35,521 bases of DNA from Cyanobacteria bacterium M5B4. GTDB lineage: Bacteria > Cyanobacteriota > Cyanobacteriia > Pseudanabaenales > Pseudanabaenaceae. The DNA lies in NCBI GenBank assembly GCA_002861535.1, contig PHFO01000008.1, positions 1 to 35,521 on the forward strand, in the 5' to 3' direction. Positions 4,462 through 12,652 of the stretch are shown piece after piece (the stretch's first letter is position 1; each line of letters starts with the position of its first letter). The translations under genes were made by a program, and so were the position numbers. The notes under the pieces were generated by a model that had not been told where the DNA came from, did not search any database, and saw nothing but the letters and a program-made list of their open reading frames with translations.

Positions 4462-5129
4462 CCCAGGCATGGTACTGGCGGGATGGTTCTTTGCGCTGTC
4501 GTTTACTCGATCGGTGGGAGCATCATTTTCTCACCAGAGATCAATCTCCCCCCAGGGATGCCCTCTACGCCAAACAAATCCATGGCAGTCGTTGTATTTA
4601 TGGTGCCACCGACCAAGAAGCCGATGGTCTATGGCTCAGGGGAGATGACCACCGATCGGTATGGGTTTGTAGTGCCGATTGCGTCCCTATTCTCATTGCC
4701 GATCGAGCTACAGGAGCAGTTGCCGCCGTCCACAGTGGCTGGCGGGGGACAGCCGCAGCGATCGGGAAAGTCATGGTCACCACCCTGCTAAACCAAGGTT
4801 GCCGTCCAGCCAACTTGATCATTGCCCTTGGACCCGCCATTAGTGGGGAAATGTATCAAGTCGGTATAGATGTCGCCGATCGAGTCCTCCAGACGCTCGA
4901 AACACCTGTGGGAGTCCTAGCAGATGATGTACCGGGACATTGTCGACTCGATTTACGCCTAGTGCAACAACAACAATTCCTAGAAATGGGCATACCCGCC
5001 GAAAATATCCAAATTGCTCCCTATTGCACCTTCCGATCGGCAGATTTATTTTATTCCTACCGCCGTAGCCGCCAGGAAAACGATCGGGATAGTCTCGGCA
5101 AAGTGCAGTGGTCGGGCATCAGGGCTTGA
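4458..5129 (+). CDS. pgeF: PgeF/YfiH family (DUF152) purine nucleoside phosphorylase/laccase-domain protein
   Basis: A 223-residue cytoplasmic protein of the YfiH/DUF152 family. Members have been described as multi-copper polyphenol oxidase-like, as purine nucleoside phosphorylase/deaminases, and as a peptidoglycan editing factor in E. coli. The three metal or catalytic ligands are present: His42 (KQIHG), Cys75 (CSADCVPIL) and His92 (VHSGWRGTA). LGPAISG near residue 124 is also family-typical. Translation is probably coupled to the DUF58 gene through an ATGA overlap. The 3' end overlaps the hybrid kinase gene by 11 bases, tail to tail. The physiological substrate in cyanobacteria is not known. 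Confidence 0.9.
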   Translation: MTQAWYWRDGSLRCRLLDRWEHHFLTRDQSPPRDALYAKQIHGSRCIYGATDQEADGLWLRGDDHRSVWVCSADCVPILIADRATGAVAAVHSGWRGTAAAIGKVMVTTLLNQGCRPANLIIALGPAISGEMYQVGIDVADRVLQTLETPVGVLADDVPGHCRLDLRLVQQQQFLEMGIPAENIQIAPYCTFRSADLFYSYRRSRQENDRDSLGKVQWSGIRA

Positions 5130-6753
5130 CTATACTCTGGATTGTTTGTTCCAACAACACAAAATCGAGCGGTTTTGACAGATAAGCATCCATTGTTTCT
5201 GTAACCCTTTCTTGAATATCACTCAGCGCATGGGCAGACAGCGCTAAAATCGGTATATTAGGATTGAGTTCTTTAAGAAGACGGGCTGCTTCTTCTCCTC
5301 CCATTATAGGCATTTCCAAATCTAAAATGACCAAATCAAAGTGCTCTTTCCTAAACTTCTCCAAGGCTTCTTGCCCATTGCCAGTCATAGTTACTTTATG
5401 CCCATTGCGTTTGAGAGCAATACTCACCACCATCTGATTAACAGGATTATCTTCTGCAATGAGAATATTAAATTGTCTATGTTTAACAGGAGTGATCATA
5501 GCTTTTGGTTCCAAAGGCCCAGTAGAGATAGAAGCAGTTAAGATAAAAGAGAATGTTGAACCACTCCCTTTTTTACTTTTAATCGAAAGCTGACTATTCA
5601 TTAAGCGCAACAATTCATTAGTAATAGAAAGACCCAAACCAGTGCCGCCATAGGTTTTGCTAGTCTGGGCAGATGCCTGAGCAAAAGGAATTAAAATTCG
5701 CTCTTGTTCTTCTTCAGAAAGACCAATACCCCGATCGGTCACTTGGAACTCTATGCTAACATATTCTGCCGATCGTTCTACTAAAACAACCTTTATTGTT
5801 ATATCTGCACCTTGGGGACTAAATTTAATTGCATTACTAGTTAAATTTAACAAAATCTGCCGCATCCGATCGGGGTCAAGACTCAGATATTCTGGTATTT
5901 GCGTATCATAATCTATGATTAAATTTAATACCTTTGGTTGTAAAAGAGGACTAACGATCGTTTTTACCTCTTGCAACAAGACCGATAAATTAGTCGGTTC
6001 AAAGACTAATTCCACCTTACCCGCTTCAATTTTCGCCAAGTCCAACACTTCGTTGATCAATCCTAAAATTGATTTGCCGCAGGTTTGAGCCACATTAAAA
6101 TATTCCACCTGCATTGGACCAAGGGAAGTCCCCCCCAACAGATGTAAACTCCCCAATAATCCATTCAATGGCGTACGAATTTCATGGCTGAGAGTAGCAA
6201 TGAACTTGGTTTTCGATCGGTTTGCTTCTTCTAAAGAGCGAGCATATTCTGCCAACTCTTTTTTATACAAACGAGATTCCAGTAAATTCACTACTTGTTT
6301 AGCTAAAATCTGCAACGTATAAAGTTGATGTTCATCTAAACTACGGGGAATGAAATCGATCACACACAAACTACCCAGGCGATAACCCCTGGGGGAAATT
6401 AGCGGTATGCCAACATAAAATCGAATAGAAGGGGGTTTCAACACCAGGATATTGTCATTTACTCTTGGGTCTTGCAAAGCGTCTTGAACAATAAAAGGTT
6501 CGTCTGACAGAATGGTATAAGCACAAAACGCCTGATCCCTGGGAGTCTGACGCACATCTAAACCAAAACAAGACTTAAACCACTGCCGATCGTGGTCAAC
6601 CAAACTAACCAAAGCCACTGGAGTATGACAAATTTGCTGGGCAAGGTGGGTCAAGTTATCAAAACTCTCTTCCTCTGGCGTATCTAAAACTTCGTAGGAT
6701 AGAAGTTCCTGTAAGCGATTAAATTCGTTGGCAGGTATAGGGGCAGGAGGCAT
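5119..6753 (-). CDS. GAF-domain hybrid sensor histidine kinase with receiver
   Basis: A 544-residue soluble hybrid kinase. Domains in order: GAF at about 20-165 (with RFYVGIPLISPRGYRLGSLCVID), HisKA at about 180-245 with phospho-accepting His190 in LSHEIRTPLNG, HATPase_c at about 290-405 (N-box LLNLTSNAIKF, G boxes DRGIGL and TYGGTGLGL), and a receiver at about 428-543 with acidic pair E434/D435, phospho-acceptor Asp478 (VILDLEMP) and Lys527 (SKP). All catalytic residues are present, so it should be active. There is no membrane segment. The GAF lacks the phytochrome-type bilin cysteine context, so I do not call it a photoreceptor. It is a single-gene unit read leftward, and no partner regulator lies beside it. 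The signal it senses is unknown. Confidence 0.93.
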   Translation of the reverse strand: MPPAPIPANEFNRLQELLSYEVLDTPEEESFDNLTHLAQQICHTPVALVSLVDHDRQWFKSCFGLDVRQTPRDQAFCAYTILSDEPFIVQDALQDPRVNDNILVLKPPSIRFYVGIPLISPRGYRLGSLCVIDFIPRSLDEHQLYTLQILAKQVVNLLESRLYKKELAEYARSLEEANRSKTKFIATLSHEIRTPLNGLLGSLHLLGGTSLGPMQVEYFNVAQTCGKSILGLINEVLDLAKIEAGKVELVFEPTNLSVLLQEVKTIVSPLLQPKVLNLIIDYDTQIPEYLSLDPDRMRQILLNLTSNAIKFSPQGADITIKVVLVERSAEYVSIEFQVTDRGIGLSEEEQERILIPFAQASAQTSKTYGGTGLGLSITNELLRLMNSQLSIKSKKGSGSTFSFILTASISTGPLEPKAMITPVKHRQFNILIAEDNPVNQMVVSIALKRNGHKVTMTGNGQEALEKFRKEHFDLVILDLEMPIMGGEEAARLLKELNPNIPILALSAHALSDIQERVTETMDAYLSKPLDFVLLEQTIQSIVKP

Positions 6754-6831: not shown

Positions 6832-7127
6832 AAATTTAAGTTGAGATTTCTGCTAACAAATCAAGTTCGACGTGCAACTATGGCATTGGGTACTTCTCCG
6901 AATGTAGAGATACGGGAATGTATGAAGTCTTGCCAAACATCAATCAACGCCTTCTTGAAGTAGTGGGTAATTGGCATGGTCTTCGTCGAGCATTCAAGTT
7001 ACGTCATCGACTTGTTCATGGCATAACTTCTTGTAGACGCGAATATACTGAAGAGCGACTACATTGGGCAGTTTCCGCTACCACCAATGTCCGAGCCGTG
7101 TGTACTGTTTGTGAAAAAGCAGTTTAG
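6832..7127 (+). pseudogene. Broken HEPN-like gene remnant
   Basis: Two adjacent plus-strand frames together look like part of one small protein. The first is open from 6832 (LLTNQVRRAT, MALGTSPNVEIRECMK) to a stop near 6961. The second is open from 6918 to 7127 and holds VVGNWHGLRRAFKLRHRLVHG. The motif RHRLVHG fits the R-x(4-6)-H signature of HEPN domains, which are found in toxin, abortive-infection and RNA-cleaving proteins. A one-base shift near 6930-6955 would join the frames, and the N-terminus appears missing. I see no intact antitoxin or nucleotidyltransferase partner nearby. The HEPN call rests on one motif. The alternative is an unrelated short gene starting at 6918. Confidence 0.4.
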
Positions 7128-7306
7128 TTTTATGTGATTACACTCTATTTCACGTTAGGACTTACGTTGCTTTTTCTGAAACCCTTACCCTCGCCCTCTC
7201 CCCAAAAATGACTAGAAAAAATTGATCTACTTCCCTTAAACCGGCATAAATGTTGTTTATCAACATTTGTCGCACAAATTAACTTAATAAGGCTTAATAA
7301 AAGTTC
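7128..7306. other. Intergenic region upstream of the EAL/PAP-like cluster
   Basis: This is the 179-base gap before the EAL gene; the wider stretch 6754-7306 has no intact gene. It holds half a MITE-like repeat (7157-7236) and an A/T-rich leader with the direct repeat CTTAATAA at 7283-7290 and 7293-7300, just before the EAL start. Any promoter for the downstream six-gene block would be expected here. I cannot pick a confident -10/-35 pair. Confidence 0.4.
7157..7236 (+). repeat. Left half of a MITE-like repeat
   Basis: The first 24 bases, starting AGGACTTACGTTGC, are identical to the left end of the complete element at 21122. A second shared block, GACTAGAAAAA followed by TTGATCTACTTC, comes further in. 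The right terminal repeat (CGTAAGTCCT) is absent, so this is a truncated copy. It lies between the HEPN-like remnant and the EAL gene, and could have brought or disrupted promoter sequence there. Confidence 0.7.
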
Positions 7307-8233
7307 ATGACAAAAAATGACAAAAAAGCAAAAAAACATAAAACCGATCGGGGAAGATTAGTTAAAGTGACGGCAATAGATTATCAGGCAACAGCAATGG
7401 CAATACAACTAGATTTAATATCCTCCCGAATGATCGAGGATGCCATCGATCGAAATGAACTGACTTTAGTATTTCAGCCCCAGAATTGTTTAGAGACCAA
7501 TTCCCTATTTGGCATCGAAGTTTTGACTAGGTGGAACTCATTAGAATTAGGCACGATCGACACCCAGCATTTTATTGAGATTTTAGAATCCTCTAGCTTA
7601 CTGCTAGTCAAGAAATTCCATGAATGGTTACTCAAAGAAACATTTACCCAGATGTCCTTGTGGCAAGATTTAGGTCTATCCGTACCGGTATTTATCAATT
7701 TTTCTAGCCGCTATTTACAGTGTAAAGATAGTTTAAGTTATATTCTATACTTGATTCAAGAATACAGAATTGATCCCCACTTTTTAGGCATTGAACTTAC
7801 AGAGACCGCTCCCATTACGCACAAAGATGAGATTTTCTTTGTTCTTTATCACCTTAATATGTTGGGCATTAAAATCTCTTTAGATGACTTTTGCACTTCC
7901 TATTGTTCTTTGGAATATCTCTGCGATCTGCCAGTGGATATGATCAAGCTGGATAAGCGTTTTGTCCATGGTCTTGTAGATGACTCTGGGGAAAGACGGG
8001 TTGCTATGACCACGATCGTGAACCATTTAATTACCATGGCACACCAGTTAGGCATAAAGGTTGTGGCAGAGGGCGTAGAAACGATCGAGCAGCTAGAATT
8101 AGTCACGGCTATGGGCTGTGATGCTTTTCAGGGATACCTCTTGAGCCGCCCTGTAGTCGCCCCAATTTTGCGGTTGATGTTGAGTAACCTTGTCACACAC
8201 AAGATGAGTTATTACCCAGCTTGTGCTGCCTAG
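7307..8233 (+). CDS. Stand-alone EAL-domain c-di-GMP phosphodiesterase
   Basis: A 308-residue protein that is essentially one EAL domain (about residues 43-300) with a short lysine-rich N-terminus and no membrane segment or sensor domain. EAL enzymes hydrolyse cyclic di-GMP to pGpG. The catalytic set is present: Glu71 (EVLTRW in place of EALxRW), Asn131 (FINFS), Glu163 (GIELTE), Asp193/Asp194 (LDDF), Lys214 (IKLDKRF), Glu255 (AEGVET) and Gln275 (FQGYLLSRP). It is therefore predicted to be active. Loop 6, usually DFGTGYSSL, reads DFCTSYCSL, which could alter dimerisation or activity. The next gene starts 33 bases downstream on the same strand, so it may be co-transcribed with the ferredoxin/V4R block. 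The start is uncertain, because a clear Shine-Dalgarno is missing and an internal ATG at codon 31 is possible. Confidence 0.93.
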   Translation: MTKNDKKAKKHKTDRGRLVKVTAIDYQATAMAIQLDLISSRMIEDAIDRNELTLVFQPQNCLETNSLFGIEVLTRWNSLELGTIDTQHFIEILESSSLLLVKKFHEWLLKETFTQMSLWQDLGLSVPVFINFSSRYLQCKDSLSYILYLIQEYRIDPHFLGIELTETAPITHKDEIFFVLYHLNMLGIKISLDDFCTSYCSLEYLCDLPVDMIKLDKRFVHGLVDDSGERRVAMTTIVNHLITMAHQLGIKVVAEGVETIEQLELVTAMGCDAFQGYLLSRPVVAPILRLMLSNLVTHKMSYYPACAA

Positions 8234-8266: not shown

Positions 8267-9274
8267 ATGAGTAAACTACTAACTTCTAATCCTTCTGGAA
8301 CTAAGCCCCCTCCTAATTCCAAAATTAGGATTGTCGTAGCTGAATCAGACACAGTTATTTTGTCCCAGTTGCTGGAAACTCTGGAAGGAATGGGCAAATG
8401 GGTTATCTATCCCTGTTCTGAATATAAAGAACTTTACAATACCCTCGCCCAGGGCAGTCCCGACCTTTTGCTTTTAGGTAATGTCAATCAGGGGAGTTGT
8501 TTTGACATCTGTCGTCAATGTCAGAAAGACTACGAACATCTGCCGATCGTGTTAATTTCCCACGAAACAAAGGTTCCAGACTTCTACCGTCAATGGGTAT
8601 CTGAGAAAGGGTTTGGGGATGTTGTCAGTAGCGCCCCCACTTGTCGATCGGAATTTATCAGTGTCATTCAAAATATCGTCGGTGTAATTCAGGCACAAAA
8701 ACAAGCCCAGTCTTTCAGTCCTTCTCCTCAAGAGGAAGATGCTCCTAGCTTGTTTTTAGAAATTGATGGTACTCCCACCAAAGCGAAGGAAGGAGCTAGG
8801 TTACTCAGTGTGCTGTTGGCCAACCACGTTAAAGTGCTCAAAGCCTGTGGCGGGCAGGGGCGATGCGCTACCTGTCACGTCTATGTTAATCAAGGTATGG
8901 AATGCCTAACGCCACCGACGGAGCAAGAAAAACTGACTCTGAGTCTGATGAAGATTGAGCGGGAAAACGCTCGTCTTGCCTGTCAATGCCGTGTCATCGG
9001 TAATGGCGTTGCTCTGGAAGTGCCGAAGGGTAAATACGTCGGCTCAGAAGCAGAACTAGAGTCTTTAGTCGGTAAGAAAGCCCAACAGACTATCATTCAC
9101 CCCATTACCGGGGAAGTCTTGGTTCGAGAAGGTAAGCTCATTCTCCGATCGGCATTGGAAAAGATGCAAGAGGTGAATCAACAATTCGAGAAAGAGATGG
9201 CAACAATGCTCTCTCGCAAACCCAATCTTCCCGCTAAAGAAAAAAACAAAGTGACCAGGAGGAATGAACAATGA
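8267..9274 (+). CDS. Degenerate receiver-2Fe-2S ferredoxin fusion (PAP-type ferredoxin, Slr0148-like)
   Basis: A 335-residue fusion. Residues 20-142 have the receiver (REC) fold pattern, but the phospho-acceptor is Gly71 (PDLLLLGN where PDLxLLD is usual), the second acidic residue is Ser27 and the conserved Lys is Ser122, so it cannot be phosphorylated in the normal way. Residues 162-258 are a 2Fe-2S ferredoxin with ligands Cys194, Cys200, Cys203 and Cys239. The C-x5-C-x2-C spacing is of the adrenodoxin type rather than the plant type (C-x4-C-x2-C) of photosynthetic PetF. A basic tail (260-335) with HPITGEVLVREGK and a helical stretch follows. It ends in an ATGA overlap with the first V4R gene. 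In Synechocystis the ferredoxin of the PAP locus (slr0148) lies after the V4R genes; here it leads the block. Its likely role is redox sensing or electron transfer during photosystem assembly, by inference. Confidence 0.85.
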   Translation: MSKLLTSNPSGTKPPPNSKIRIVVAESDTVILSQLLETLEGMGKWVIYPCSEYKELYNTLAQGSPDLLLLGNVNQGSCFDICRQCQKDYEHLPIVLISHETKVPDFYRQWVSEKGFGDVVSSAPTCRSEFISVIQNIVGVIQAQKQAQSFSPSPQEEDAPSLFLEIDGTPTKAKEGARLLSVLLANHVKVLKACGGQGRCATCHVYVNQGMECLTPPTEQEKLTLSLMKIERENARLACQCRVIGNGVALEVPKGKYVGSEAELESLVGKKAQQTIIHPITGEVLVREGKLILRSALEKMQEVNQQFEKEMATMLSRKPNLPAKEKNKVTRRNEQ

Positions 9275-10005
9275 CAGAAGTAATTACTCAGATGCCCGTC
9301 TTCAAAACGCCGCCGATTCCCATGCCCTCTGTATGGAAGGTTTGTCATTACAATCATCATACCTTTTTTCAATTTGACATGAAAAAGGGAGAAATCCAAG
9401 ACTACCATCATCAACGCAATATCTTGGTGGGGGAAGACTTCATTGTGGCATTGCTCAAAGGTCTGGAACATGAAGTAGGAGAATCGGCGGGTTGGTTGCT
9501 TTACACGATCGGGTACAATTGGGGTAAAGCAGACGCGATCGAGTTTGACAAGTGGTTTTACGAATTTTATCACCTCACCCTGCAAACAGCGAATCTGCAC
9601 TTTGCTTTAGAAACATGGTGGTGGCCCCTCACAGCCCAGGGTTGGGGGACATGGAAAGTAGATTTAACTTCTTTGAAAGAGGGTTTTATCTTTGTTGATC
9701 TATTTGATTCTGCCGTTGCTAAGACTTTAGGTTATGTGGGTAAACCTGTTTGTCATCTTTACGCCGGTCTGATTGCGGGCTTTTTCTCGGCAGTATTTGA
9801 CAAAAATCTCAGTGGAACAGAAGTGCAATGTTATGCCATGGGCAATGATTTTTGCCGCTTCTTAGTCGGCTCAGAAAAACGCATCCGTGCCACCGAGTTC
9901 TGGTTATCATCAGGGGCAACTGTTGCTGATATTGAAGCCAGATTTGCTAGCCAAGAAATTGCGGCAGACCTTGAACTTTTAGTATCAGGAGATTACAATG
10001 AATAG
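9271..10005 (+). CDS. V4R-domain protein, Slr0144-like (PAP cluster)
   Basis: A 244-residue soluble protein with a V4R (4-vinyl reductase) domain across about residues 55-200. V4R domains occur in bacteriochlorophyll-related proteins and in sensors that bind small hydrophobic or porphyrin-like ligands. Three conserved cysteines are present: Cys161 (PVCHLYAGLIAG), Cys187 and Cys195 (CYAMGNDFCRFLVG), the usual V4R putative metal or ligand site. The order V4R - small protein - phycobiliprotein-like - V4R matches slr0144 to slr0147 of Synechocystis, a locus reported to improve photosystem II assembly. The gene overlaps the ferredoxin-fusion gene upstream (ATGA) and the next gene by 8 bases, so translation is probably coupled along the operon. 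Confidence 0.9.
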   Translation: MTEVITQMPVFKTPPIPMPSVWKVCHYNHHTFFQFDMKKGEIQDYHHQRNILVGEDFIVALLKGLEHEVGESAGWLLYTIGYNWGKADAIEFDKWFYEFYHLTLQTANLHFALETWWWPLTAQGWGTWKVDLTSLKEGFIFVDLFDSAVAKTLGYVGKPVCHLYAGLIAGFFSAVFDKNLSGTEVQCYAMGNDFCRFLVGSEKRIRATEFWLSSGATVADIEARFASQEIAADLELLVSGDYNE

Positions 10006-10348
10006 AGATTTCCGTCAATGGCTTAGGGGAATTTGGACTAGTTTCTGCCGCTGGTGGAAACGTCTTACACAGCCTAATCGTAAAACAGCAAGAGGCAATA
10101 TTCTTTTTACGCCAATTAAGTTGTGGTCGCCTAAGCAACCGAACAACAGTGTTGGTCTTTGGGAAGGTTGCCACCCCGAAATGCAGATTAGCAATGTAAT
10201 TGGAGTAGAGCAATTCCGCAACGCGCCGTTTTTACCGATTGATAATTTGATGTCTCAAGTGCAGTGGCGGATGCCTAAATCATCCCGCAAAGCTACAGCA
10301 GGTGATGTCACGATCGGTTCTATCAAGTCAGATATTCAATGGGATTAG
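9998..10348 (+). CDS. Small PAP-cluster protein of unknown function (Slr0145 position)
   Basis: A 116-residue protein that I recognise only by its place between the first V4R gene and the phycobiliprotein-like gene, the position of slr0145 in Synechocystis. The N-terminus is basic and tryptophan-rich (FRQWLRGIWTSFCRWWKR), which could form an amphipathic helix that lies on a membrane. No full transmembrane segment or known motif is visible. The rest includes FTPIKLWSPKQ and VQWRMPKSSRK and ends with an acidic DIQWD. It overlaps the preceding gene by 8 bases and is followed after 15 bases, with an AAGGAG ribosome site, by the next gene. This makes it a real co-translated gene rather than a chance frame. 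Confidence 0.75.
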   Translation: MNRDFRQWLRGIWTSFCRWWKRLTQPNRKTARGNILFTPIKLWSPKQPNNSVGLWEGCHPEMQISNVIGVEQFRNAPFLPIDNLMSQVQWRMPKSSRKATAGDVTIGSIKSDIQWD

Positions 10349-10363
10349 TTAAGGAGAAAAACT

Positions 10364-10837
10364 ATGCTTACTTTATTAGAAAATGTCCTCGATCGAGCAG
10401 ATGGTACCTATGTTAGTGCCCAGGATTTACGCTTAATTGAACAGTCCCTTTCCTCTTGGCACGATCGCCGGGATGCCTATACCGCAATTCAGGTCAATGA
10501 AGGGGCTATTATTCGTCGGGCGTTGGAACTAATGCAAGACAGCGATCGTTTTGCAGCTAAACCCCTGAACAACCTAGGAGTCGATCGGTGTCAGAGAGAC
10601 ATGCTCCTGGGACTCCGTTCCTGCGCCCTTGCCATGCTCTTAGAAGACCAAGACCTACTGAAAGACCGCATCCTTTATTGGCAACAAAACATCTTTCAAG
10701 CAATGAACCTTAACTATCAAGGCTACAAGTTCATGTGGCAAGCGATGCGGTCAGTATTGACAGAAAAACAAGCAGAACTGATGAAACCCTATCTCCGTAC
10801 TGCCCACGAACTGATGAGCGGTGAAACTGTTGCTTAA
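10364..10837 (+). CDS. Phycobiliprotein-like protein of the PAP cluster (Slr0146-like)
   Basis: A 157-residue all-helical protein with the globin-like phycobiliprotein fold and about the length of an allophycocyanin subunit. The segment DRCQRDMLLGLRSCALAMLL (about residues 75-94) corresponds to the phycobiliprotein segment CLRDxxxxLRYxxYAML. The bilin-attachment cysteine is present as Cys76, with the Arg-Asp pair (R78/D79) that normally contacts the chromophore. Usual light-harvesting subunits share more of the linker-contacting sequence, so this is a divergent family member. It matches slr0146 by position and type. A bilin or chlorophyll-precursor carrier role during photosystem assembly is plausible but inferred. 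Whether it binds pigment must be tested. A strong AAGGAG site precedes the ATG. Confidence 0.85.
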   Translation: MLTLLENVLDRADGTYVSAQDLRLIEQSLSSWHDRRDAYTAIQVNEGAIIRRALELMQDSDRFAAKPLNNLGVDRCQRDMLLGLRSCALAMLLEDQDLLKDRILYWQQNIFQAMNLNYQGYKFMWQAMRSVLTEKQAELMKPYLRTAHELMSGETVA

Positions 10838-10893: not shown

Positions 10894-11520
10894 ATGTTAA
10901 CAGACATGAGGCGGGAACCAGTACCCGCAAGTTTTTTTAATCCTAGAAGCTATGTCAAATCTAATCCCGCTACCGGGTTGCTCCATTCCCGCCAAGGCAA
11001 TCGTCTTTTGGCAATACCAGAAATTCTGATGGACAGCATCTTTCATACTTTGGCAGAAGAAGCAGGAGAAGCATCGCAATTGGCTCTTTATACCTTTGGC
11101 TTTAGTTGGGGTAAGTCTTTCTTTCAACGGGTAAAGAAGGAAACAGAAGTCTATTTTGCTACTCCTTTATCCCAAATGATCGCAGCCGACTTTTTTGCCA
11201 CTATGCAACAGGCGTGGGCAGTTCATGGTCTAGGAAAACCGATCGTTGATTTTAGTTTTTGTAAGAAGGGCATTTTAATTGTCACGATCGAAAATTCGGG
11301 AATTTCCACCGCCCAGACTGGGTTTGACCTGGAGGCAGGATTTTTGGGAGGGTGGTTTGCTGCCCAGACCCATCAGGACCTGCGGGGTTGCTTGGGCGAT
11401 CGCAGTAAGTTTCCCCGCCGTGCCCAGTACCTGATCGGAGGCAGTAGTCATATTCTTGATCTGCAAGAAAAACATCTCAACAAGGGTAAGACTACGCCCT
11501 CTATCATTCCCCATCTTTAG
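10894..11520 (+). CDS. Second V4R-domain protein, Slr0147-like (PAP cluster)
   Basis: A 208-residue V4R protein, paralogous to the one at 9271. Both share an EEAGEAS/HEVGESA segment followed by LYTFGFSWGK or LYTIGYNWGK. The metal or ligand cysteines are mostly lost here: only Cys166 (LRGCLGDRSKFPRR) remains where the other copy has a Cys-x7-Cys pair, so it may have a structural or regulatory rather than ligand-binding role. It is the last gene of the block, 56 bases after the phycobiliprotein-like gene and with an AGAGG ribosome site. It faces the pstS-like gene tail to tail with a 47-base gap. Confidence 0.85.
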   Translation: MLTDMRREPVPASFFNPRSYVKSNPATGLLHSRQGNRLLAIPEILMDSIFHTLAEEAGEASQLALYTFGFSWGKSFFQRVKKETEVYFATPLSQMIAADFFATMQQAWAVHGLGKPIVDFSFCKKGILIVTIENSGISTAQTGFDLEAGFLGGWFAAQTHQDLRGCLGDRSKFPRRAQYLIGGSSHILDLQEKHLNKGKTTPSIIPHL

Positions 11521-11567: not shown

Positions 11568-12614
11568 TCAAGGCATGACTTGGGCAAGGGCGCTCTGCAC
11601 CCTCGGTACTAATTGACTACTGAGGGGGACAAAACTCAGTTCCTCTGCGAACTGTTGCCCTGTGGTGAGACACCAGGAGAGAACATCTTTTAGGGCGCGG
11701 CTTTGGGTGCTGTCGTTGTAGGTTTTGTAGACTAAAATCCAGGAGTAGGTCACGATCGGGTAGGCATTCGCCCCGGGGGGATCGGGAATAAAACCTAATA
11801 AATTGTCTGGCAGCTCTAGGGTACTGATGGCTTCGGTGACGGTAGCAGTATCCGACCTGAGATAGTTGCCGCTTTTGTTTTCTAATTTTGCCGTGCTTAG
11901 TTTGTTTTGCATCGCATAGGTAGATTCTAAATAACCGATCGTACCCACCTGCTGGGACACCTGGGCGGTGACTCCTTCATTGCCCCTACTGCCGATCGTG
12001 CCCTCTGGCCACTCTACCGCAGTGCCCGAACCTACCCGCTCTTGCCATTCTGGATTGATCGCACTCAAGTGCTGGGTAAAAATCCCCGTCGTGCCACTGG
12101 CATCCGATCGGCGGATCACAAAAATTTCTTGATCGGGTAAATCCATACCCGGATTGTCCTGCTGGATTAGGGGGTCATTCCAGCGCTTAATCTTGCCCAA
12201 AAATAATTCCCCGTAAGTCGCCCGCGACAACTTTAGATCAGTGATCCCAGGCAAATTGTAAGCTAGAACAATACTGCCGATCGTGACTGGGAGCATAATC
12301 ACGCCCCGATCGACCTGTTTAATTTCCTCTGGGGTCATACCCACATCACTAGCCCCAAAGTCTACCGTCTGGGTCTGAAACTGCCGCACCCCCGCCACAC
12401 TGCCGATCGATTGGTAGCTCACCTGCACATTGGGAAACAGTTTGTTATATTCCTGGAACCACTTAAAGTAGAGGGGAGCCGGCAGGGTTGCTCCTGCCCC
12501 AGTCAGAGAAACTAAACTGGGAGGAGGCTCTACAGTAGGATTTTCCGATCGAGTGCACCCCCATAACGTCCCCAACGCCACAGACCCATACAAAAAATTA
12601 CGGCGTGAACCCAT
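11568..12614 (-). CDS. pstS: Phosphate ABC transporter substrate-binding lipoprotein (PstS)
   Basis: A 348-residue periplasmic phosphate-binding protein. Family features are LTGAGATLPAPLYFKWFQEY near the N-terminus of the mature protein, SDVGMTPEEI, and the phosphate-loop region RRSDASGTTGIFTQHL. I start at the ATG at 12614 because AAGGAAG lies about 10 bases upstream and the protein then opens with a signal. The frame continues 12 codons further without signal-like sequence. The signal contains twin arginines (SRRNFLY) and the lipobox-like LWGC, so it may be a Tat-exported lipoprotein with Cys20 lipidated. No pstCAB genes follow in the window. It lies 38 bases after the ComFB gene on the same strand. 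No convincing Pho box is seen upstream. Confidence 0.93.
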   Translation of the reverse strand: MGSRRNFLYGSVALGTLWGCTRSENPTVEPPPSLVSLTGAGATLPAPLYFKWFQEYNKLFPNVQVSYQSIGSVAGVRQFQTQTVDFGASDVGMTPEEIKQVDRGVIMLPVTIGSIVLAYNLPGITDLKLSRATYGELFLGKIKRWNDPLIQQDNPGMDLPDQEIFVIRRSDASGTTGIFTQHLSAINPEWQERVGSGTAVEWPEGTIGSRGNEGVTAQVSQQVGTIGYLESTYAMQNKLSTAKLENKSGNYLRSDTATVTEAISTLELPDNLLGFIPDPPGANAYPIVTYSWILVYKTYNDSTQSRALKDVLSWCLTTGQQFAEELSFVPLSSQLVPRVQSALAQVMP

Positions 12615-12652
12615 ACTAATTTCTTCCTTGCGTCGGGGGTAGTGTAACAAAA

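Follow-up and report, generated by a model that had tools for sequence, protein, structure and literature searches.

A pseudo-receiver fused to a Fed5-type ferredoxin in a cyanobacterial V4R/phycobiliprotein-like gene cluster: a candidate docking module

The window, i.e. the whole stretch of 35,521 nucleotides from Cyanobacteria bacterium M5B4 that was analyzed, carries a gene in which a receiver-like domain without a phospho-acceptor is joined to a ferredoxin. This raises the question what such a receiver contributes to a predicted electron carrier. A preliminary description of the locus had suggested that the state of an iron-sulfur cluster replaces phosphorylation as the signal. The fusion gene, its two domains and the neighboring genes are listed in Table 1.

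Table 1. Coordinates of the fusion gene, its domains and its neighbors in the window
Feature	Position	Strand	Evidence
Stand-alone EAL c-di-GMP phosphodiesterase gene, 33 bp upstream of the fusion	7307..8233	+	Pfam EAL 205 bits
Pseudo-receiver/ferredoxin fusion gene, 335 aa	8267..9274	+	ORF, Pfam, AlphaFold2, Foldseek
Predicted pseudo-receiver domain, residues 20-149	8324..8713	+	AlphaFold2, Foldseek, profile vs PDB, residue counts
Predicted adrenodoxin/ISC-type [2Fe-2S] ferredoxin domain with Fed5-type C-terminal extension, residues about 160-320	8744..9226	+	Pfam Fer2, phmmer, invariant Cys
V4R-domain protein, Slr0144-like; start overlaps the stop of the fusion (ATGA)	9271..10005	+	Pfam V4R 4.7e-20
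Hypothetical protein, Slr0145 position, overlaps previous gene	9998..10348	+	No Pfam match; place conserved in related loci
Phycobiliprotein-like protein, Slr0146 position	10364..10837	+	Pfam Phycobilisome 2.6e-13
Second V4R-family protein, Slr0147 position	10894..11520	+	Resembles V4R proteins in related loci; no Pfam match alone
Phosphate-binding-like protein, next gene downstream of the cluster	11568-12650	other strand	By inspection

A chance open reading frame or a misassembly was ruled out, as the same fusion is present in three other genomes with mostly matching neighbors. Between homologous fusions, change was highest at codon third positions (0.62/0.56, compared with 0.15 at second positions), and this bias points to a selected protein. 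The stop codon of the fusion and the start codon of the first V4R gene overlap as ATGA at 9271-9274. Thus the coupling noted earlier is correct, but the fusion does not clearly lead the cluster, since the EAL gene on the same strand ends 33 bp upstream. By alignment this EAL gene has its catalytic motif residues. An EAL gene also precedes the fusion in loci L047 and L049 and is absent from the fusion loci L048 and L050; the split genes examined, described below, have no EAL gene immediately in front of them. The region 6840-7160, upstream of the EAL gene, resembles a decayed coding remnant by eye only. Genes for a GAF/HisKA_2 kinase and a REC-AraC response regulator lie upstream of the fusion clusters at L047:61-2999, L048:972-6070 and L049:8402-12978, the AraC-type regulator of L047 being identified by eye. 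Beside the window cluster neither gene was found; a hybrid kinase is encoded at 5119-6753 on the other strand. A scan for promoters and terminators gave no excess over shuffled sequences.

The N-terminal part was analyzed by structure prediction and by profile searches. In the AlphaFold2 model, residues 21-140 form five beta/alpha repeats with a pLDDT of 90-98, and a long last helix (124-149) ends the domain. Foldseek aligned this part to FrzS, PhoB, YycF and other receivers with a target TM of about 0.8. A profile of 18 sequences of the N-terminal-domain family matched receiver structures in the PDB (YycF, E=1.6e-5), placing Gly71 opposite the phospho-Asp, and phmmer matched the window protein to the pseudo-receiver FrzS. 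The Pfam Response_reg score was 18 bits, under the cut-off of 30.2. Structure and profile searches support the receiver fold that had been proposed for the N-terminus. The Asp acceptor, the acidic pair and the Lys of canonical response-regulator receivers were not found: the window protein has Glu26/Ser27 at the acidic pair, Gly71 at the acceptor, Ser98 at the T/S position and Ser122 at the Lys position. The reported loss of acceptor, second acid and Lys also held when the family was compared. Among 24 distinct members, fused and stand-alone, we found no intact phospho-acceptor; residue 71 is Gly in 24/24, residue 27 is S/Y/M and residue 122 is I/S/V/G, never Lys. Ala25, Gly115 and Ser121 are invariant as well. 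Cys50 is present in 22/24 and Cys85 in 19/24, with Tyr in place of Cys85 in the other 5. The most conserved elements are beta3, beta4 and beta5, while alpha4 (F106, R108, W110) is moderately conserved and alpha5 is variable. A conservation scan for a partner surface revealed none that stands out. With a (beta/alpha)5 receiver fold and no phospho-acceptor Asp, the domain is predicted to be a non-phosphorylatable pseudo-receiver.

Among solved pseudo-receivers, FrzS of Myxococcus xanthus is the best match by sequence (phmmer) and among the best by structure (Foldseek). FrzS has also lost the phospho-Asp (Ala53, Gly71 here) and likewise has Ser as the second acid (Ser10, Ser27 here) (PMC1974792). 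In contrast to the window domain, which has lost the Lys and is joined to a ferredoxin, FrzS retains both this Lys and the switch Tyr and is joined to a coiled coil. It works via protein contacts without phosphorylation (PMC1974792; PMC12632262). The pseudo-receivers of KaiA and CikA are also cyanobacterial receiver folds that act without phosphorylation, and are tied to redox through quinone binding (PMC12632262); no close sequence match between them and the window domain was found. In general, pseudo-receivers act by dimerization, protein contacts or ligand binding, and the 2025 review that describes them regards the way they are switched on and off as unresolved and mentions no ferredoxin fusion (PMC12632262). 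A literature search for receiver-ferredoxin fusions, with subscription papers outside its scope, found no report.

The C-terminal part matched Pfam Fer2 with 37.5 bits against a threshold of 21 bits. It was matched by phmmer to ISC Fdx and putidaredoxin, and by Foldseek to FDX2, R. capsulatus FdC and the E. coli ISC-type ferredoxin. The cluster cysteines are arranged as C194-x5-C200-x2-C203-x35-C239, i.e. as the C-x5-C-x2-C-x(about 35)-C of an adrenodoxin-type ferredoxin within a Fer2 fold, and all four are invariant in 34/34 ferredoxins compared from four groups. An additional cysteine, Cys241, is confined to the fused ferredoxins and the three split ferredoxins closest to them. We confirm the fused ferredoxin and its cysteine spacing, and judge the domain from its sequence to be adrenodoxin-type with a predicted [2Fe-2S] cluster. 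A C-terminal extension (HPxTG...GKLIxRS) is shared with Fed5/Slr0148 in addition to the cysteine motif, so that the window ferredoxin belongs to the Fed5/Slr0148 sequence group. The proteins examined at the Slr0148 position, however, stand alone with 160 aa and follow the second V4R gene, whereas the window ferredoxin is fused and precedes the first. In the ferredoxin tree its group is related to, but separate from, the canonical ferredoxins that the Slr0148-position proteins resemble. The survey of Slr0148 homologues suggested earlier had the opposite outcome to a shared N-terminal domain, as the ferredoxins examined at this position (L169-L171) do not carry it. Synechocystis can do without fed5 (slr0148), which is adrenodoxin-like (PMC4284462); its Fdx5 relative is described as [2Fe-2S], and the fed5 product was without activity with HoxEFU (PMC7363133). 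Neither PMC4284462 nor PMC7363133 names a partner of Fed5. Similar Fer2 domains occur in genes annotated as adenylate/guanylate cyclases, e.g. CyaC in Sinorhizobium (annotation only). There the cyclase is the output, whereas the partner in the window is a pseudo-receiver without enzymatic output.

The cluster had been called PAP-like, after the PAP operon slr0144-slr0152 of Synechocystis. The two share the order V4R, hypothetical, phycobiliprotein-like, V4R. In contrast to the PAP layout, the window cluster starts with the EAL gene and the fusion, and no Fed5, ApcA-like, Fed4, TPR or kinase genes come after its V4R core. Another locus, L169 of genome G052, encodes V4R, hypothetical, phycobiliprotein-like and V4R proteins, a stand-alone 160-aa ferredoxin, a second phycobiliprotein-like protein and ORFs of 103, 317 and 627 aa; this gene order is the one expected of slr0144-slr0152. 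The L169 ferredoxin shares 59% identity with the canonical ferredoxin of the window's relatives and 46% with that of the window. Since several relatives have both the canonical and the pseudo-receiver-type cluster, and given these identities, we read the window cluster as a paralogue of the PAP operon, which itself has a stand-alone ferredoxin. Thus the V4R/phycobiliprotein-like setting stands, but the cluster is distinct from the PAP operon. That operon's V4R proteins are described as unexplained (PMC13326532). The phycobiliprotein-like protein of the window keeps Cys-x-Arg-Asp at the bilin site in the alignment to phycoerythrin beta and may carry a bilin. Its counterparts in the canonical clusters L127 and L136 lack the bilin-site Cys.

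In most relatives, pseudo-receiver protein and ferredoxin are encoded by separate neighboring genes. At all split loci (L051-L057, L059-L063, L133-L135), the gene for the stand-alone pseudo-receiver protein immediately precedes that for the ferredoxin. The stand-alone protein has 260-332 residues and consists of the pseudo-receiver and a conserved helical C-terminal domain of about 115 residues; the split ferredoxin has 161-184 residues and is followed by V4R, hypothetical, phycobiliprotein-like and V4R genes. Pfam revealed no known domain in the helical part. Foldseek matches of the stand-alone protein were driven by the receiver part, and the one KaiA structure among the matches to its model was uninformative, with an rmsd of 15. 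The window's own genome, only about 90% complete, gave no match to the helical domain. The complete fusion is present in 4/38 genomes of the family as five genes (one in the window, two in G003 and one each in G005 and G006). Samples of the phylum and class outside the family revealed no fusion, a plasmid search returned ferredoxin parts but no fusion, and a contig search with the single window protein gave one distant ferredoxin only. A wide distribution of the pseudo-receiver family was ruled out by the class survey, in which scores of 145-217 bits were confined to family f1 and G095, with a gap down to the ordinary receivers at 51 bits. Outside that survey G229 adds one member. A further ferredoxin paralogue of 145-190 aa is encoded upstream of the stand-alone pseudo-receiver gene (L054:7421-7861; equivalents in L055, L057-L063 and L133-L135), and these paralogues form their own long-branched group in the tree.

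The history of the fusion was followed in trees of both parts. All five fused receivers fall into a single clade (support 93/99). The tree of the ferredoxins groups the five fused domains with three split ferredoxins from G010, G001 and G002 (100/100), the latter two genomes belonging to the window's own genus. A single clade of fused ferredoxins was not rejected (p-AU 0.234). These trees are compatible with one fusion event for all five genes. A later fission is possible for the split genes of G010, G001 and G002, although those of the window's own genus may also be ancestral. Loss of the acceptor most likely predates the fusion, since every stand-alone protein lacks it too, and the invariance of Gly71 in all 24 domains makes the loss of phosphorylation independent of the fusion. 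Stand-alone pseudo-receivers without a ferredoxin are equally degenerate, so the suggestion that the cluster state replaced phosphorylation in the fusion is not supported in that form. Loci L048, L049 and L050 contain both the fusion and the stand-alone protein, in line with the joining of a duplicated domain to the ferredoxin.

Compared with the pseudo-receiver, the helical domain of this stand-alone protein is far more widespread, with matches in 183/291 genomes. In the examples read outside the pseudo-receiver clade, it follows a conserved Roadblock/LC7-like N-terminal domain. This assignment is only moderately supported: Pfam Robl_LC7 was detected in 7/14 counterpart proteins (best E=0.001), and a PDB profile search with the domain gave no match. 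The Roadblock/LC7-like adaptor gene often lies directly upstream of a Fed5-type ferredoxin gene. It is within 1.5 kb of the ferredoxin in 11/29 canonical-type ferredoxin-centered loci, with the pseudo-receiver version in 2 more. By gene neighborhood, then, the ferredoxin appears to be paired time and again with an adaptor that has an exchangeable N-terminal module, LC7-like or pseudo-receiver. As a separate observation, the proteins with a Roadblock/LC7-like N-terminus and the helical domain form a widespread cyanobacterial family without a Pfam name and with an invariant NYW in the helical domain (L128:6817-7800, L130:6264-7364, L018:2108-3145 and many others).

We give a probability of about 0.5 to the reading that the pseudo-receiver is a docking module, which tethers the Fed5-type ferredoxin to a V4R/phycobiliprotein-like complex for electron delivery. 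The pseudo-receiver would be a module for protein docking or dimerization, already non-phosphorylatable before the fusion, and the C-terminal part would be an electron carrier of the Fed5 family with a [2Fe-2S] cluster. Fusion would permanently tether the ferredoxin to the docking module, which elsewhere is supplied by the neighboring-gene protein with its pseudo-receiver and helical domain. Through the module the ferredoxin would be positioned at a complex formed by V4R and phycobiliprotein-like proteins of the same cluster, and there it would pass electrons. This reading is based on indirect evidence, namely the fusion and the adjacency of the split genes, because proteins that are fused in one genome and encoded by neighbors in others often interact. 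We infer that the separate pseudo-receiver protein binds the ferredoxin and that fusion makes this binding permanent; the V4R/phycobiliprotein-like proteins would be the partners, and electron delivery rather than signaling would be the output. The main reason to prefer docking over a redox switch specific to the fusion is the exchangeable adaptor module beside a constant link to the ferredoxin. Against docking stand the conservation scan, in which no partner surface stood out, the undefined placement of the two domains in the model, and the grouping of three split ferredoxins among the fused ones. A purely electron-transfer role also leaves the EAL gene, and the kinase and AraC-type regulator near some fusions, without explanation.

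A redox-read switch, in which the [2Fe-2S] cluster, when oxidized, reduced or lost, alters the surface of the pseudo-receiver and hence the activity of a downstream partner, is unlikely. The invariant cluster ligands are in its favor, as is the covalent connection of the domains via the long final helix 124-149; in receivers, a long final helix is a common signal-transmitting element. PAP-type ferredoxin genes in Synechocystis also respond to light and to electron-transport inhibitors (PMC4284462). However, the phosphorylation site was already lost in proteins without ferredoxin, no output domain is fused, and separate pseudo-receiver proteins are kept in three fusion genomes. In addition, the AlphaFold2 model of the window fusion (pTM 0.54) does not define the relative placement of the two domains and has no confident interface between them. 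More doubtful still is the specific form in which the redox or assembly state of the attached cluster would set the conformation or partner binding of the pseudo-receiver, and an Fe-S-gated switch would control a V4R/phycobiliprotein-like pigment-handling complex.

A ligand might instead gate the ferredoxin, either a quinone as in KaiA and CikA, or c-di-GMP as in ShkA with its level set by the EAL enzyme. Such ligands are known for pseudo-receivers, two in cyanobacteria (PMC12632262), and the window, L047 and L049 have an EAL gene with catalytic motif residues ahead of the fusion; the absence of this gene from the other two fusion loci speaks against this, and we regard gating by a ligand as improbable. 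The same low probability applies to a passive fusion, i.e. duplication of a neighboring gene and joining by deletion without functional coupling of the domains. The fusion is indeed rare and both parts exist separately, but it has been retained in four genera with 55-63% identity between the fused proteins, and identity and codon pattern indicate purifying constraint on both parts. Least probable of all, we consider it hardly credible that Cys50 and Cys85 form a RitR-like disulfide or intermolecular bond with the ferredoxin as reductant. RitR and Hp1021 offer precedents (PMC12632262) and both cysteines are well conserved in the counts given above, but their positions differ from those of known redox cysteines, and Cys85 is replaced by Tyr in five members.

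Fed5 ferredoxins are widespread in cyanobacteria and poorly understood. Under the docking reading, the fusion suggests a candidate partner for them, namely the product of the adjacent gene; a Roadblock/LC7-like counterpart of this protein occurs across cyanobacteria. With this candidate, the role of Fed5 ferredoxins beside V4R/phycobiliprotein-like genes becomes directly testable.
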